Shown: piece by piece, positions 1,172 to 9,181 of the stretch
How positions within the stretch are numbered: the first letter of the stretch is position 1
How the letters are laid out: every line of letters begins with the position of its first letter
Position numbers and translations under genes: made by a program
Source of the DNA: Chloroflexota bacterium
GTDB taxonomy: Bacteria; Chloroflexota; Anaerolineae; B4-G1; SLSP01
Length of the DNA: 10,849 bases
Direction: 5' to 3'
Assembly (NCBI GenBank): GCA_012798275.1
Contig: JAAZNO010000596.1
Location: forward strand, 1 to 10,849
The notes under the pieces: model-generated
Database searches by the model: none
What the model saw: the letters and a program-made list of their open reading frames with translations, nothing else
What the model was told of the DNA's origin: nothing

Positions 1172-1567
1172 ATGAGTTTCGGAGAACACGTGCAGTCAGC
1201 AGATTGGAAGAAGGAAAAACACATTCCGGTCATCGAAGTGCCGGAAATCATTGAGGCGGGCAAGCCCTTTATGGTAACGGTGAGCGTGGGCAAGGAGATC
1301 CCCCATCCCAACACCACCGAACACCACATCAGCTGGATTGATGTTTACTTCAAGCCGGAGAGCGAGAAGTTTCTGCATCAGGTAGGACACTTCGACTTCA
1401 CGGCGCACGCGGAGTCCACTAAAGGCCCTAACGAGGGAGCCGTGCTGGCGCATCCCATCGCCACCTTCTCCATGACCATCAAGGAGCCGGGCACGCTCAT
1501 CGCCCTGGAGTCCTGCAACATCCACGGCATTTGGGAAAACTCGGCAGAGCTCCATCTCTCGGAGTAG
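1172..1567 (+). CDS. Superoxide reductase, neelaredoxin type (class II, single iron centre)
   Basis: The enzyme reduces superoxide to hydrogen peroxide in the cytoplasm, taking electrons usually from rubredoxin. The 131-residue length fits one-iron neelaredoxins, and the N-terminal Cys4 desulforedoxin domain of class I desulfoferrodoxins is absent. The iron ligands expected for the family are visible: His17 (EKHIP), His45 and His51 (HPNTTEH), and the C-terminal pair Cys115 and His118 (CNIHG). Glu15-Lys16 occupies the position of the catalytic Glu-Lys pair. A strong ribosome binding site (aggagg, 1161-1166) fixes the ATG. A terminator follows directly at 1572-1609, so this is probably the last gene of its transcript. 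Its peroxide product could be consumed by the ferritin-like proteins encoded downstream. I see no rubredoxin gene in this window. Confidence 0.93.
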   Translation: MSFGEHVQSADWKKEKHIPVIEVPEIIEAGKPFMVTVSVGKEIPHPNTTEHHISWIDVYFKPESEKFLHQVGHFDFTAHAESTKGPNEGAVLAHPIATFSMTIKEPGTLIALESCNIHGIWENSAELHLSE

Positions 1568-1571
1568 CGAC

Positions 1572-1609
1572 AGGCCCGCGAGGCCTTCTGAGCTTTGCGG
1601 GCCTTTTTT
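1572..1609 (+). terminator. Rho-independent terminator after superoxide reductase
   Basis: aggcccgc (1572-1579) pairs perfectly with gcgggcct (1597-1604) across a 17-base loop. The 3' side runs straight into a T-tract (1604-1609). It lies five bases after the superoxide reductase stop codon. It separates that gene from the encapsulin operon, although partial read-through is possible. Confidence 0.85.
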
Positions 1610-1665: not shown

Positions 1666-1733
1666 GTGCGTCGTGATCGAAGACTGCGACGGCTCTCTTC
1701 TCACGACCCACTGCTTTCTATTTTCCGAGGAGG
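1666..1733 (+). repeat. 68-base leader block, copy A, before the encapsulin cargo gene
   Basis: This block aligns without gaps to 4444-4511, with 53 of 68 positions identical by hand count. Its last seven bases (gaggagg, 1727-1733) are the ribosome binding site of the cargo gene. An 11-bp stem can form between 1666-1676 and 1701-1711, with one C-C mismatch. The same stem exists in copy B. It may be a mobile intergenic element that landed next to both genes, or a shared regulatory leader. No convincing promoter is visible between the upstream terminator and this block. Confidence 0.6.
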
Positions 1734-1737
1734 ATAC

Positions 1738-2694
1738 ATGACCCCTATAGCCCATGAGACTCTGATCGGATTATTGCGAGCTGCGGCGATGGATGAACAT
1801 GCCGCGATCATTCAATACTTGCGCCATGCCTACATGATGGGCGAGAGCAGTCTATCTTGTGAGATCGAGGCCGTGGCCCGGGACGAGATGCGGCATTTCT
1901 GGATCCTGTCGCGTTGGATCGTCAAACTGGGCGGTGAACCGCTCACGGACCGGGGCTTCACCGACTTCAGCGGCGCTACGCCGCCCGAATGGATGGCCCG
2001 CAACGTCGCGGCGGAGGACCGGGCCATCGCTATGTATCGAGATATCCTCGGGCGCACGGACGACGCCGATGTGCGCGCCGACATCGCCTACATTCTGGCA
2101 GATGAAGAGCGGCATCGGCAACAGTTCGTGAAGTTCGGCGCGGAGGTGCGGGCCGAGATGACGGCGGCAGCAGGCGAGCCGACGGAGGCTGCTCCCGAAG
2201 CGGCGCTCGCGGCGGTGGATAAAGAAGCCCTGGAGTGGGGCGTGCAGCATGAGTACGCGGCGCTGCTCCAGTATCTGATGCATTCCTTCTTACTGCACAC
2301 ACAGCCGGATGGTGAAATCTCCGACCGGCTGGAGCTGGAGGCAGTCAACGAAATGCAGCATCTGGGCTGGCTCGGCGAGAAGCTGGCAGGACACGGCCTC
2401 GAGCTGCCCTGGACGCCTCACACGGTCGAGGTGCCCTCTGACACTGAGGCCATGTTGCAGGCCGATGTCAACCTGGAGCAAAGTACCTCGGCCAGGTATG
2501 GACAATTCCTGACCCAAATGGCGGATCCAGCGCTGAAAAGCGTGGTGGAAGATGTGCGGGGACAAGAGCTCTATCACGAAAGTCTCTTCAATCGCCTGTT
2601 GAAGCGCGTGGCCCAGCAGCCCGCCTCCGGAGCGCCGTCGTCGTCACCCCGAACCTGGACTATCGGATCCCTGAAACAAAAGGAGGTGAAGTAA
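1738..2694 (+). CDS. Encapsulin cargo: tandem ferritin-like di-iron protein
   Basis: This 318-residue protein is predicted to oxidise Fe(II) with O2 or peroxide inside an encapsulin shell. I chose the ATG at 1738 because of the gaggagg four bases upstream; an in-frame start at 1666 lies in the repeated leader. Two four-helix ferritin-like domains are present. Domain 1 (about 5-140) has ligands Glu20, Glu50/His53 (EMRH), Glu93 and Glu123/His126 (EERH). Domain 2 (about 160-290) has Glu172, Glu205/His208 (EMQH), Glu247 and Glu277/His280 (ELYH). EHAAIIQYL and EYAALLQYL show that they arose by duplication. A Pro/Ser-rich linker (about 292-306) leads to TIGSLK (308-313), a typical encapsulin targeting motif. 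The shell gene starts within the stop codon. Bacterioferritin- or rubrerythrin-like folds are both possible. I see no rubredoxin cysteines, and haem ligation cannot be judged. Confidence 0.9.
   Translation: MTPIAHETLIGLLRAAAMDEHAAIIQYLRHAYMMGESSLSCEIEAVARDEMRHFWILSRWIVKLGGEPLTDRGFTDFSGATPPEWMARNVAAEDRAIAMYRDILGRTDDADVRADIAYILADEERHRQQFVKFGAEVRAEMTAAAGEPTEAAPEAALAAVDKEALEWGVQHEYAALLQYLMHSFLLHTQPDGEISDRLELEAVNEMQHLGWLGEKLAGHGLELPWTPHTVEVPSDTEAMLQADVNLEQSTSARYGQFLTQMADPALKSVVEDVRGQELYHESLFNRLLKRVAQQPASGAPSSSPRTWTIGSLKQKEVK
2681..2690 (+). promoter_or_regulatory. Shine-Dalgarno of the encapsulin gene inside the cargo gene
   Basis: aggaggtgaa, preceded by aa, is a near-perfect complement of the 16S rRNA 3' end and lies seven bases (counted from aggagg) before the encapsulin ATG at 2694. 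It also encodes the last residues of the cargo (Lys-Glu-Val-Lys), just after the targeting motif. With the TAATG overlap this indicates translational coupling plus strong independent initiation, which would suit a shell needed in many more copies than its cargo. Confidence 0.85.
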
Positions 2695-3500
2695 TGGAGA
2701 ATGTCTTGATGCGGGGTAATTCACCCCTGACCGCAGAACAATGGCAGGTAGTGGATACTACCATCAGCCAGGTAGCGCAGCAGATCCTCGTCGGGCGGCG
2801 CGTGTTGGACCTCTTCGGGCCGTTGGGATTCGGGGCGTACACCGTCCCACTCTACAACTATCCCGGCGGCGGGGAAGCGCCGGTGCGCGCCAAAATGGTC
2901 CGTCAATTGCCGATGACGCTGTTGCAGCAGGACTTCATCATCACGGTAAAGGACCTGGAGCTGATGAATGCGGGCCAGCCCTTCGACATCGCCCCCATTG
3001 CCGCGGCGGCGACTCAAATCGCGCTGGCAGAAGATCGCCTGATCCTCTTCGGCGACGCAGAGGAAGGCGTTGCGGGCCTGCTCAACATTGAAGGCCGCCA
3101 GGTCATGCCGTTGAGCGACTGGGCTGAGGAAGGCGCGGCCGTCGCCGAGGTCGGCAAAGCCATCGCGGCTCTCATCGAGGACAACTTCTACGGCGCGTAT
3201 GCCCTCATCCTGCATCCCGCACGCCTCTCGCGCCTGCAACGTGTCGTCGGGCGGGGTGGCATCCTGGAAGCAGAATTACTGGAAAAGCAAGCCCCCGGCG
3301 GCATCTTCAGTTCCCCTGGCATACCGTTGAACAAAGTGTTGCTCGTGACCGCACAGCCACAGTATGTGGATCTGGCAGTGGGGATGGATCTCGCCGCCGG
3401 CTACCTCGAGACGGTAAACCTGGAGCATCGGTTCCGGCTGATGGAGACGCTGGCCTTGCGGGTCAAGCAGGCCGGGGCGATTTGCACGCTCGAAGGCTGA
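2694..3500 (+). CDS. Family 1 encapsulin shell protein (linocin M18-like, HK97 fold)
   Basis: The 268-residue protein self-assembles into an icosahedral protein nanocompartment in the cytoplasm. Its length is close to that of T=1 encapsulins (about 265 residues in Thermotoga maritima). Family features include the N-terminal segment SPLTAEQW followed by GRRVLDLFGPLGFG, the segment LAEDRLILFGDAEEGVAGLL, corresponding to the fEDevifrG...GvkGLL region of other family 1 shells, and the late VGMDLAAGYLE. The ATG overlaps the cargo stop codon by one base (TAATG). The cargo just upstream ends in a targeting peptide, so this shell almost certainly packages it. A terminator at 3555-3593 ends the operon. 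Compared from memory, the tryptophan that stacks on flavin in the T. maritima shell seems to be absent. HK97 phage origin is ancestral to the family; no phage genes are nearby. Confidence 0.95.
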   Translation: MENVLMRGNSPLTAEQWQVVDTTISQVAQQILVGRRVLDLFGPLGFGAYTVPLYNYPGGGEAPVRAKMVRQLPMTLLQQDFIITVKDLELMNAGQPFDIAPIAAAATQIALAEDRLILFGDAEEGVAGLLNIEGRQVMPLSDWAEEGAAVAEVGKAIAALIEDNFYGAYALILHPARLSRLQRVVGRGGILEAELLEKQAPGGIFSSPGIPLNKVLLVTAQPQYVDLAVGMDLAAGYLETVNLEHRFRLMETLALRVKQAGAICTLEG

Positions 3501-3839: not shown

Positions 3840-4319
3840 ATGTCCCTTGCCGAGATTTTGACTCAAGCCATGCAGCTGGAAGCAACAGGCCGTGACTTCT
3901 ATCTACAGGCCGCAACCCTGCTGACCGATGAGGCTACTGTCGCGATGTTCAAGCAGCTCGCGGAGGATGAACGGGCGCACTACGGCTATCTTGAGCGCCA
4001 GCTGGCAGCGGTGCAGTGCGGCGAAGACGTCTGCGCTATCCCGGAACTTGGCCCCGTGGCCCCCCTCGACCTGAGCGACCCGATATTCCCCGCTGGCGTC
4101 ACGACGCTGGAGACTCTGGGGCAGCCCTTCTCCCTGGAAGAGGCGCTGCTCTTCTCCATGGGCATCGAGGAGAAGAGCTACAAGCTGTATCGCGGCTACG
4201 CTGAAACTGTCACAGAGGCCGAAGCCAGGCAGCTCTTCTTGCAGCTTGCCTCTGTGGAACTGAAGCACTTCGAGATCCTGGTACAGCGCTACGAATCTTT
4301 CTACCCCTATCCGCATTAG
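3840..4319 (+). CDS. Rubrerythrin-like ferritin-family di-iron protein
   Basis: This 159-residue cytosolic four-helix protein carries one di-iron site. The ligands are all visible: Glu14 (LEATGRDFY), Glu44/His47 (EDERAHY), Glu110 (GIEEKSY) and Glu140/His143 (ELKH). This is the rubrerythrin/COG1633 pattern without the C-terminal rubredoxin domain. Two cysteines (60 and 65) sit in the loop between helix pairs but do not form a Cys4 site. The likely role is peroxide reduction or iron handling. The ATG is fixed by gaggagg (3827-3833). Unlike the protein at 1738 it has no Pro/Ser linker or GSL-type tail (it ends in YPYPH), so it is probably not encapsulin cargo. It has its own promoter and lies next to the encapsulin operon, which supports a shared oxidative or iron stress role. 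Confidence 0.88.
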   Translation: MSLAEILTQAMQLEATGRDFYLQAATLLTDEATVAMFKQLAEDERAHYGYLERQLAAVQCGEDVCAIPELGPVAPLDLSDPIFPAGVTTLETLGQPFSLEEALLFSMGIEEKSYKLYRGYAETVTEAEARQLFLQLASVELKHFEILVQRYESFYPYPH

Positions 4320-6462: not shown

Positions 6463-6483
6463 ACGTGCGCACGTGGGCACGTG
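6463..6483. promoter_or_regulatory. Palindrome and gcacgtg direct repeat, operator-like
   Basis: acgtgcgcacgt (6463-6474) is a perfect 12-base palindrome. It overlaps gcacgtg at 6469-6475, which is repeated at 6477-6483 with a period of eight; each copy contains the palindrome cacgtg. The element lies immediately after one stop codon and 11 bases before the ribosome binding site of the next gene. It may bind a regulator or form a small mRNA hairpin. Confidence 0.35.
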
Positions 6484-6511
6484 TTTATTTTCAAAGGAGG
6501 AGGCAACCCTC

Positions 6512-9181
6512 ATGGCCTTTCGACTGCGCTGGCCTACCCAGCATGGAACGATTACGCAAGCCTTTGGAGTGAATCCCCAGTTCTACAACAAATTCGGCCT
6601 TCCCGGACATGAGGGCCTCGATTTCATGGCCCCCATGGGAAGCGAAATTTACGCCGGCGCCGACGGCTTTGTGAGCGACGTGCGGCTCGACGGCAACGCC
6701 AATCCCCTGCAACTGCCTTACGGCAATCAGGTCCGCGTGGAGCACAACGACGGCTTCGAGACGATCTACGCGCATCTCGAACAGGTCGTCGTGGTGCGTG
6801 GACAATTCGTCCGCGCCGGACAGCTCATCGCGCTGGCAGATGACACGGGCAACTCCACCGGCTCCCATCTGCACCTCACGCTGAAGCAAAAGGGCGCGAC
6901 CCAGGCGGGACAGACGACCTATCCGCACGACATCATCGACCCCACGCCCTACCTCACTCCCTTTCAGCCCGGCGGGGTGGAACCGACGCCTCCCGCCCAG
7001 CCCACCCTCTACGTCACCGTAGACAGCCCGGAGCTGGGCTACCTCAACGTCCGCAAGGCCCCTTACGCCAGCGCGGAGCTGCTGGGGCAGGTAGATCATG
7101 GGGCGCGTCTGGGCATCCTCGAAGATGCCGACCTGGCGCAGGCCAAGATCGGCCAGTACGGGCAGTGGTTGTGGATTCGAACGCCCGACGATCGAGTAGG
7201 CTACGTCGCCGCCTGGTATGTGAAACTCGCAGCGACGCCGACCCCCACCCCGCCTCCGACCGTGCTTTTTGTCGTGGTAGAGAGCCCCGAGGTCCCCCTC
7301 AAACTGCGCCAGGGACCGGGCGTGTCCTACGCCATCATCGCGGAGCTGCCCCATGCAACGCGGCTCAAAGCGCTGGAAGCCGAAGCCGTCGTGAAGCAGA
7401 AAGTCGGCCAGCAGGGACAATGGCTGAACGTGCAGGCGCCCAACGGCCAACAGGGATACGTCGCCGCCTGGTACATCAAACTGCAGACCCCCGACGCTGT
7501 GCCCATCGTCCCCCAGCCGACGGAAGGACCGGTGACCCACATCATCGTGGAAAGCCCCGACGCGGGCCTGCGCGTCCGCCAGCAGCCGACGACGAGCGCC
7601 GCGCAGGTCTGGTGGGTGCCCCATGGCGCCGTGCTCGAAGTGCTGGAGGATCCCGCCGAAGCCGGCAAAAAAGTCGGGCAGCAAGACCAATGGATCCGCG
7701 TCCGCACCCCCTCACGGCACGAGGGGTTCGTGGCGGCGTGGTACGTGCGCGCGCCGCGCACGAGCGACACCCGCCGCCTGGCGACCGTCGCCGACCTGCC
7801 CAAGGGCCTCTCGCCGTACCTCTTCGGGATTCACGCCGCGCAGCTCAGCGACGACGCAGCCTTCCGCGACGGCCTCCGCGCGCTCTTCACGAGCAAGGGC
7901 AAAAAAGGCTGGGTCCTCTTCACCGAGTCGCTGGGACGGCATCCGGCCAACATCACACTGGATCAGAACCTCCGCAACCGGCTTTGGGACTGGGCGCAGC
8001 AGGGCTATGGCGTCATCATCCGGCTGAATCACGGCTATCATCCCAGCGGCACACTGCCCGTCTCTGCCGGCTACGACGATTTCGCCGCGACCTGCGCCCG
8101 GTGGGTGGAGCTGTATCTCAAGGCCGACAGCGCCACCAACACCCAGTACCAATGGACACTTCAGATCGGCAATGAGCAGAACAATCCCAGCGAGCATCCG
8201 GGGGATTACGGGCAGATCTTCGAGCACATCACGCCGGAGCGCTACGCGCAGGCCTTCAACAAAGTCTATGCCGCCATCAAAGCCGTCTTGCCCGGGGCGG
8301 TCGTCTGCCCCGGCGCAGTGGATCCCTACAACTCGACGCCGCTGCCGCTGCTTGGTCAGGCCCGTTGGCGTCCCCTCGACTATTTCCAGACCATGCTGGA
8401 CAACATCCCGGCGCTGGATGGCTTCATCCTGCACGCCTACACGCACGGCCCCGCGCTCGACGCGATCACTAACCTGGCCACCTTTGGGGATTCCCTGCTC
8501 AGCGACCATTACTTCGACTTCCAGACGTACCGGCTGTTCATGGAACGCATCCCGCTGAAGTGGCGCGATCTACCCGTCTACCTCACGGAGACCAATCATA
8601 TCTGCCGCCCGGGCGCCGCGCCGGCCTGCCTCCACGATCAGGGATGGGTGAACCAGAACACCGGCTGGGTGCGCGCCATGTACACCGAAATCCACCGCTG
8701 GAACCGGCAGCCCTACGCGCAGCAGATCCGTTGCGCCCTGCTCTATCGCTGGGATGGCGACGATTGGCGCATCGCCGATAAGCCCGGCGTCCAGGAGGAC
8801 TTCCGACAGGCGCTGGATAACGACTACCGCTGGCTGTTGCCTGAGCCGGAATTGCTCGCCCAGGCCGCCGTCGTCCCGGCGGCAGCCGCGCCGGTCGCTG
8901 CCCCGCAGCCCCCAGAGCGGACCCTCGTAGCGCCGGACAACCTCAAACGCATTTGGGGCATCGGTCCCAAGGCCGAGGTCGCGCTCAACGCCGCGGGCAT
9001 CTTCCTTTTCGAGCAGCTGGCGGCGCTCACTCCCGAGGCGCTTCTGGATCTCCTCGGCGAGACAGCGTTGCGCGTCCGCTACACCGCCACCTGGCCTGAG
9101 CAAGCGCGTCTGCTGGTCGAACAGCGTCACGACGAATGGCTCGACCTGCAACGCCGGTTGGGACGCGGTCGCCCGCGCTAA
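6512..9181 (+). CDS. Multi-domain M23 peptidase, three SH3 domains, clan A-like glycosidase and HhH
   Basis: This 889-residue protein is probably a cell-wall or polysaccharide-active enzyme. I chose the ATG at 6512 for the aaaggagg near 6494; an upstream in-frame GTG lies in the palindromic element. Residues 1-150 form an M23 (LytM) endopeptidase: His33 and Asp37 (HEGLD), His88 (YAHL), and His119/His121 (GSHLHL). Three bacterial SH3 domains follow (about 166-239, 251-324 and 342-415), each ending in a copy of (Y/F)VAAWY. Residues about 425-790 resemble a clan A glycoside hydrolase barrel, with Glu555 (GNEQN) as candidate acid/base and Glu693 (LTETN) as candidate nucleophile. After an Ala/Pro linker, residues 808-889 look like a helix-hairpin-helix module ([18 protein letters not shown]). 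No signal peptide or membrane segment is present. The glycosidase substrate is not evident. It sits at the end of the mutM unit. Confidence 0.85.

Follow-up and report, generated by a model that had tools for sequence, protein, structure and literature searches.

What does a chain of two consecutive ferritin-like domains do when its gene overlaps that of an encapsulin? The question is raised by a 10,849-nucleotide stretch of DNA (the window), contig 45 in the draft genome of a Chloroflexota bacterium (3.06 Mb, 724 contigs, 89% complete). According to our analysis, the two genes very probably form a family 1 encapsulin pair with a fused bacterioferritin (Bfr)-type cargo, working as an encapsulated ferroxidase for iron storage. 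The initial annotation had read a fused double ferritin-like cargo from the 318-residue frame, and this observation is confirmed: both halves are predicted to adopt the Bfr fold, as two four-helix bundles following each other in one chain. Its implied claim of a novel cargo class is ruled out by earlier description in PMC8346489 and in section 8 of PMC11202242. What our analysis adds to the known class is a lineage split at the second di-iron site, a fully kept pair of methionines at the haem position, and the linkage of docking tail and shell gene, with untagged relatives.

Both frames lie on the forward strand, overlapping by one base, and a strong ribosome-binding sequence precedes each of them (Table 1). 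The shell protein scores 211.5 bits with NF041155 encap_f1 (cut-off 100), which makes it a member of family 1. It also matches Linocin_M18 (E 2.1e-59), and its best match by sequence among solved structures is EncA (4pt2, E 9.4e-50). The upstream superoxide reductase is recognised by NCBIfam neela_ferrous as well (domain score 105.3 bits, cut-off 61.9). The terminator scan returned one hairpin against a shuffle mean of 2.0, which by count is not above chance, and its placement directly after the stop codon is fitting for a terminator. The rubrerythrin-like protein downstream has no targeting motif at its end. Further along, positions 6473-9181 encode a 902-residue protein, in which a peptidase M23 domain and three SH3_3 stretches are recognised; its C-terminus weakly matches a helix-hairpin-helix. 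Concerning a plasmid location, tblastn against a plasmid collection gave no match. The closest named record among the loci listed (L011) comes from an Anaerolineae bacterium, its cargo being 93% identical.

Table 1. Features of the cargo-encapsulin pair and its neighbours (positions in the window)
Feature	Position	Strand	Details
Superoxide reductase (desulfoferrodoxin / neelaredoxin type), upstream neighbour	1172..1567	+	Pfam Desulfoferrodox E 5.7e-33
Terminator-like hairpin between superoxide reductase and cargo	1572..1604	+	13 pairs + T run; consensus scan
Cargo ribosome-binding sequence	1727..1733	+	GAGGAGG; read from sequence
Cargo, tandem bacterioferritin-type protein	1738..2694	+	318 aa; stop codon included
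Bundle 1, residues 6-144	1753..2169	+	ligands E20 E50 H53 E93 E123 H126; haem-position Met51
Bundle 2, residues 158-293	2209..2616	+	ligands E172 E205 H208 E247 E277 H280; haem-position Met206
Flexible Pro/Ser-containing linker, residues 294-307	2617..2658	+	pLDDT down to 76, then 54
TIGSLK, encapsulin targeting-peptide-like motif, residues 308-313	2659..2676	+	sequence; co-occurrence of tail motif and encapsulin gene
Encapsulin ribosome-binding sequence	2680..2686	+	AAGGAGG; within last cargo codons; read from sequence
Family 1 encapsulin shell protein	2694..3500	+	268 aa
Rubrerythrin-like protein, downstream neighbour	3840..4319	+	Pfam Rubrerythrin E 7e-12

Structure prediction gives each cargo half four long helices, followed by linker or tail. 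Neither half contains the fifth helix of a single-domain bacterioferritin subunit. A helix in the B-C loop, which in Dps and DpsL sits where the haem would be, is lacking from both as well. Two bundles in one chain, with a C-terminal TIGSLK and a neighbouring encapsulin gene, identify the protein as one of the two-bundle cargos named 'Flp + Flp' in the 2024 review PMC11202242, where the name is attributed to Giessen and Silver 2017. The 2021 survey PMC8346489 describes 'Bfr' cargos of two four-helix bundles in Firmicutes, Aquificae, Chloroflexi and Cyanobacteria, which it counts as encapsulin cargo on account of their targeting peptides. As far as the passages of both papers on these cargos go, our protein has the same build, with consecutive four-helix bundles, a linker, a targeting peptide at the C-terminus and an encapsulin of family 1.

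Other known systems resemble the cargo in part. PDB 9viw ('Bacterioferritin', 306 aa) is a homologue from end to end (E 3.5e-64 against the family profile). The 291-residue aligned part of 9viw is identical to P0121, labelled Thermocrinis minervae, and its C-terminus is FTIGGL; it differs from our cargo in being an Aquificota protein with Ser at position 205 of site 2. No paper naming 9VIW was found in the open-licence literature. With bacterioferritin (E. coli 1bcf and others) each half shares the fold, the six di-iron ligands and the haem-position Met. However, bacterioferritin is assembled from 24 single subunits, each of which has a fifth helix and no tail, and since that helix is missing here we do not file the cargo as a classical bacterioferritin. 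Mini-bacterioferritin (9qq4, 9qq5), in the relevant passages of PMC13168243, is a bare four-helix bundle with canonical di-iron ligands, a haem-position Met and neither B-C nor fifth helix, as is each cargo half. But it is a single-domain 12-mer without docking tail or other terminal extension, and its signature residue, the interface His29, falls on Ala31 of the cargo by hand mapping of the alignment; because of this residue and of the tail, the cargo is not filed as mini-bacterioferritin either. As far as its sequence tells, it would work like a bacterioferritin or mini-bacterioferritin pair. For single-domain relatives, a half-domain profile search listed 120 of 439 proteins of 129-257 aa, several of them labelled partial, and the domain tree holds three single-domain rows only. 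EncFtn / EncB is likewise an encapsulin cargo with a C-terminal targeting peptide and EXXH di-iron chemistry, but its subunits have two helices and its site is built across a dimer, in a decamer (PMC11202242, in part). Our cargo scores below the cut-offs of its profiles (EncB_fam 41.4 bits against 90; TIGR04535 24.7 bits against 125).

The claim of two complete di-iron sites also stands, each half carrying the canonical six-ligand site within one bundle. A first alignment has 121 rows, one for the window's cargo and 120 for the best of 1610 proteins; all 12 ligands are found in the 117 of 117 that are fully aligned. In a larger second alignment, 116 of the best 120 proteins have all 12, and the other four are gapped or broken. 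At the level of loci, we considered the best 80 of 141 from a contig search and 10 from a phylum search, the window included, two pairs of these 90 rows being identical in the tree. Both sites are complete in 88 of the 90, mostly Chloroflexota, and L009 and L010 show changes in site 2 alone. A degenerate second domain is ruled out for the Chloroflexota-type branch by this completeness.

In this respect our cargo differs from the general description of its class. The passage of PMC11202242 on such cargos states that generally the first bundle alone keeps a conserved di-iron site; judged from the aligned residues, this does not hold for our mostly Chloroflexota branch. The review models another member, EDP73503.1, and compares it with a Bfr homodimer; a pseudo-dimer of this kind is also what the initial annotation suggested the cargo could form. 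A second branch appears among the 134 proteins related to 9VIW: position 205, one Glu of site 2, is Ser in all of the best 120, and the named members of this set are labelled Aquificota, bar one Acidobacteria MAG. We take EDP73503.1 to be an Aquificota protein; if so, the first-site-only statement describes the Aquificota branch.

Docking tail and shell gene go together, which supports the docking tag read by the initial annotation. A T[VI]GSL-like tail is present in 23 of the 90 loci and absent from 67. In all 23 tagged loci an encapsulin gene lies no more than 4.3 kb away; in 22 the frame lies inside the locus, and in the 23rd (L008) it was found about 4.2 kb downstream on a longer stretch. 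Near the untagged relatives no encapsulin was found (0/67), 60 of these loci having at least 1 kb of downstream sequence and the other seven being weak tests because they have less. Ten whole genomes gave encapsulin in 4/4 with the tagged and 0/6 with the untagged protein. On a quick tree, at least 6 changes of the tag/shell trait are needed, and well-supported branches force 4 of these. When kinship is allowed for, 4 well-supported contrasts remain, or 6 if every branch is counted. They all point the same way, and the sign test gives p 0.125, so the contrast is not significant by itself. If the tagged state is ancestral, tag and shell would have been lost together several times.

Of the 61 untagged loci with a name, 35 carry a Dehalococcoidia-type label and 4 a Deltaproteobacteria label, as against none of the 19 named tagged ones. 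A large untagged tandem group (L020-L022, L025-L033, L035-L059 and others), many of its members labelled Dehalococcoidia, has no encapsulin nearby and is apparently a free-standing cytosolic tandem bacterioferritin. In the Aquificota-like set (best 120 of 134), a T[VIL]G[DEGKNST]L-like end occurs in 113/120; a stricter pattern that excludes Asp and Glu leaves 32/120.

As an encapsulated ferroxidase, the preferred reading, the cargo would work as follows. Each half would hold its own canonical di-iron ferroxidase site, and the two halves would pack as a built-in Bfr-like dimer. TIGSLK, at the end of the flexible tail, would dock the chain to the shell interior, loading the cargo. Inside the shell, both sites would oxidise Fe(II) using O2 or H2O2, and the ferric product would be retained and stored there, the cell thus being protected from free iron and peroxide. 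In the organism's own genome the only PF00210 matches are the two cargo halves. At about 89% completeness, this genome may have a further ferritin that the data lack; rubrerythrin-type proteins are also present. No stand-alone bacterioferritin-associated ferredoxin was found in it, and its two PF04324 matches lie in 714- and 528-residue frames. In the phylum Chloroflexota, 10 of 301 sampled genomes, our own included, contain a match with an E-value of 1e-15 or lower.

The alternative that survives best would supplement iron storage by an encapsulated ferroxidase and not displace it. The same cargo may bind one haem where its halves meet, with Met51 on one side and Met206 on the other, as happens between two subunits of bacterioferritin and mini-bacterioferritin. 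This haem would conduct electrons to the stored iron, so that the docked chain deposits iron and releases it too. We regard this as quite possible, leaning slightly against it. Position 51 is Met in 118/120 of the best of 1610 proteins, in 118/120 of the best of 134 related to 9VIW and in 90/90 loci, and position 206 in 119/120, 120/120 and 90/90, respectively. Every row without Met has a gap there, so Met occupies both positions in all rows that reach them among the 240 listed proteins. Moreover, Met206 outlasts the change in site 2, being retained in 120/120 Aquificota-like Ser205 proteins (best 120 of 134) and in L009 and L010. The domain 1 Met lines up with a Met of D. desulfuricans Bfr (1nf4), the one in its EMRH motif; according to a passage of PMC13168243, this Bfr binds Fe-coproporphyrin. 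The lack of the B-C loop helix in both halves is consistent with a haem at this place, as is the resemblance of the published model of a relative to a Bfr homodimer (PMC11202242, section on these cargos). However, the Dps-like PA4880 (8w1d) also has Met at the aligned place, and the accessible text of its paper mentions haem solely in a cited title. The Ala31 found in place of the mini-bacterioferritin His29 argues against a haem too, and the tandem-cargo passages of PMC8346489 and PMC11202242 make no mention of one. In the accessible text of the open-licence literature, we found no report of haem in a tandem encapsulin cargo.

The two halves show a fixed asymmetry at equivalent positions just after the first Glu ligand. 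In half 1, His21 is nearly invariant (118/120 in the best of 1610, 117/120 in the best of 134, 88/90 loci), and in half 2 Tyr173 is invariant across the listed rows (120/120, 120/120 and 90/90). This near-invariance suggests that the joint of the halves may be asymmetric.

An inner ferritin-like cage, built of six or twelve tandem chains within the encapsulin and holding the stored iron, is in our opinion unlikely. Such an arrangement is proposed in passages of PMC8346489 and PMC11202242, and the halves share the fold of Bfr and mini-Bfr, whose single-domain forms make 24- and 12-mers. But both halves lack the fifth helix, which lies at the core of the four-fold axis in Bfr 24-mers, and Arg61, a dimer-dimer salt-bridge residue of mini-Bfr, falls by hand mapping on Trp60 in half 1, at a position that varies.

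Equally improbable to us is that the pair mainly detoxifies peroxide in partnership with superoxide reductase and rubrerythrin, storage being secondary and H2O2 from superoxide reductase serving to oxidise Fe(II). A superoxide reductase frame lies within 1 kb of the cargo frame in 13/23 tagged against 11/67 untagged loci, and a broad profile places rubrerythrin/ferritin-like frames no more than 3 kb away in 15/23 against 23/67. The basis of this proposal is gene neighbourhood, however; in the window the hairpin separates the superoxide reductase gene from the cargo gene, and superoxide reductase carries no docking tail. Detoxification would be compatible with storage, so the two are not exclusive. 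Superoxide reductase near the cargo-encapsulin pair, as in the window, recurs across the family. In L075 and L065 it lies downstream of the encapsulin, not upstream, and a rubrerythrin/ferritin-like frame abuts or overlaps the cargo frame on its upstream side.

In summary, it is tempting to propose, although the picture as a whole is rather doubtful, that the cargo is a covalent, slightly asymmetric Bfr dimer in which both ferroxidase sites work and the joint holds one bis-Met haem, a single docked chain depositing iron and conducting the electrons for its release. The Aquificota branch would have given up site 2 and kept the haem Met, and the joint loss of tag and shell, on several occasions, would have left untagged forms in the cytosol, many of them in Dehalococcoidia. 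The exit of iron from encapsulins appears as an open question in PMC11202242, in the part bearing on it. If the proposal is true, a haem built into the cargo provides a direct, testable route for iron release. The two-site Chloroflexota-type branch and the Ser205 Aquificota-type branch offer a natural comparison for the role of the second ferroxidase site, and tagged and untagged versions of one protein reveal what encapsulation adds.
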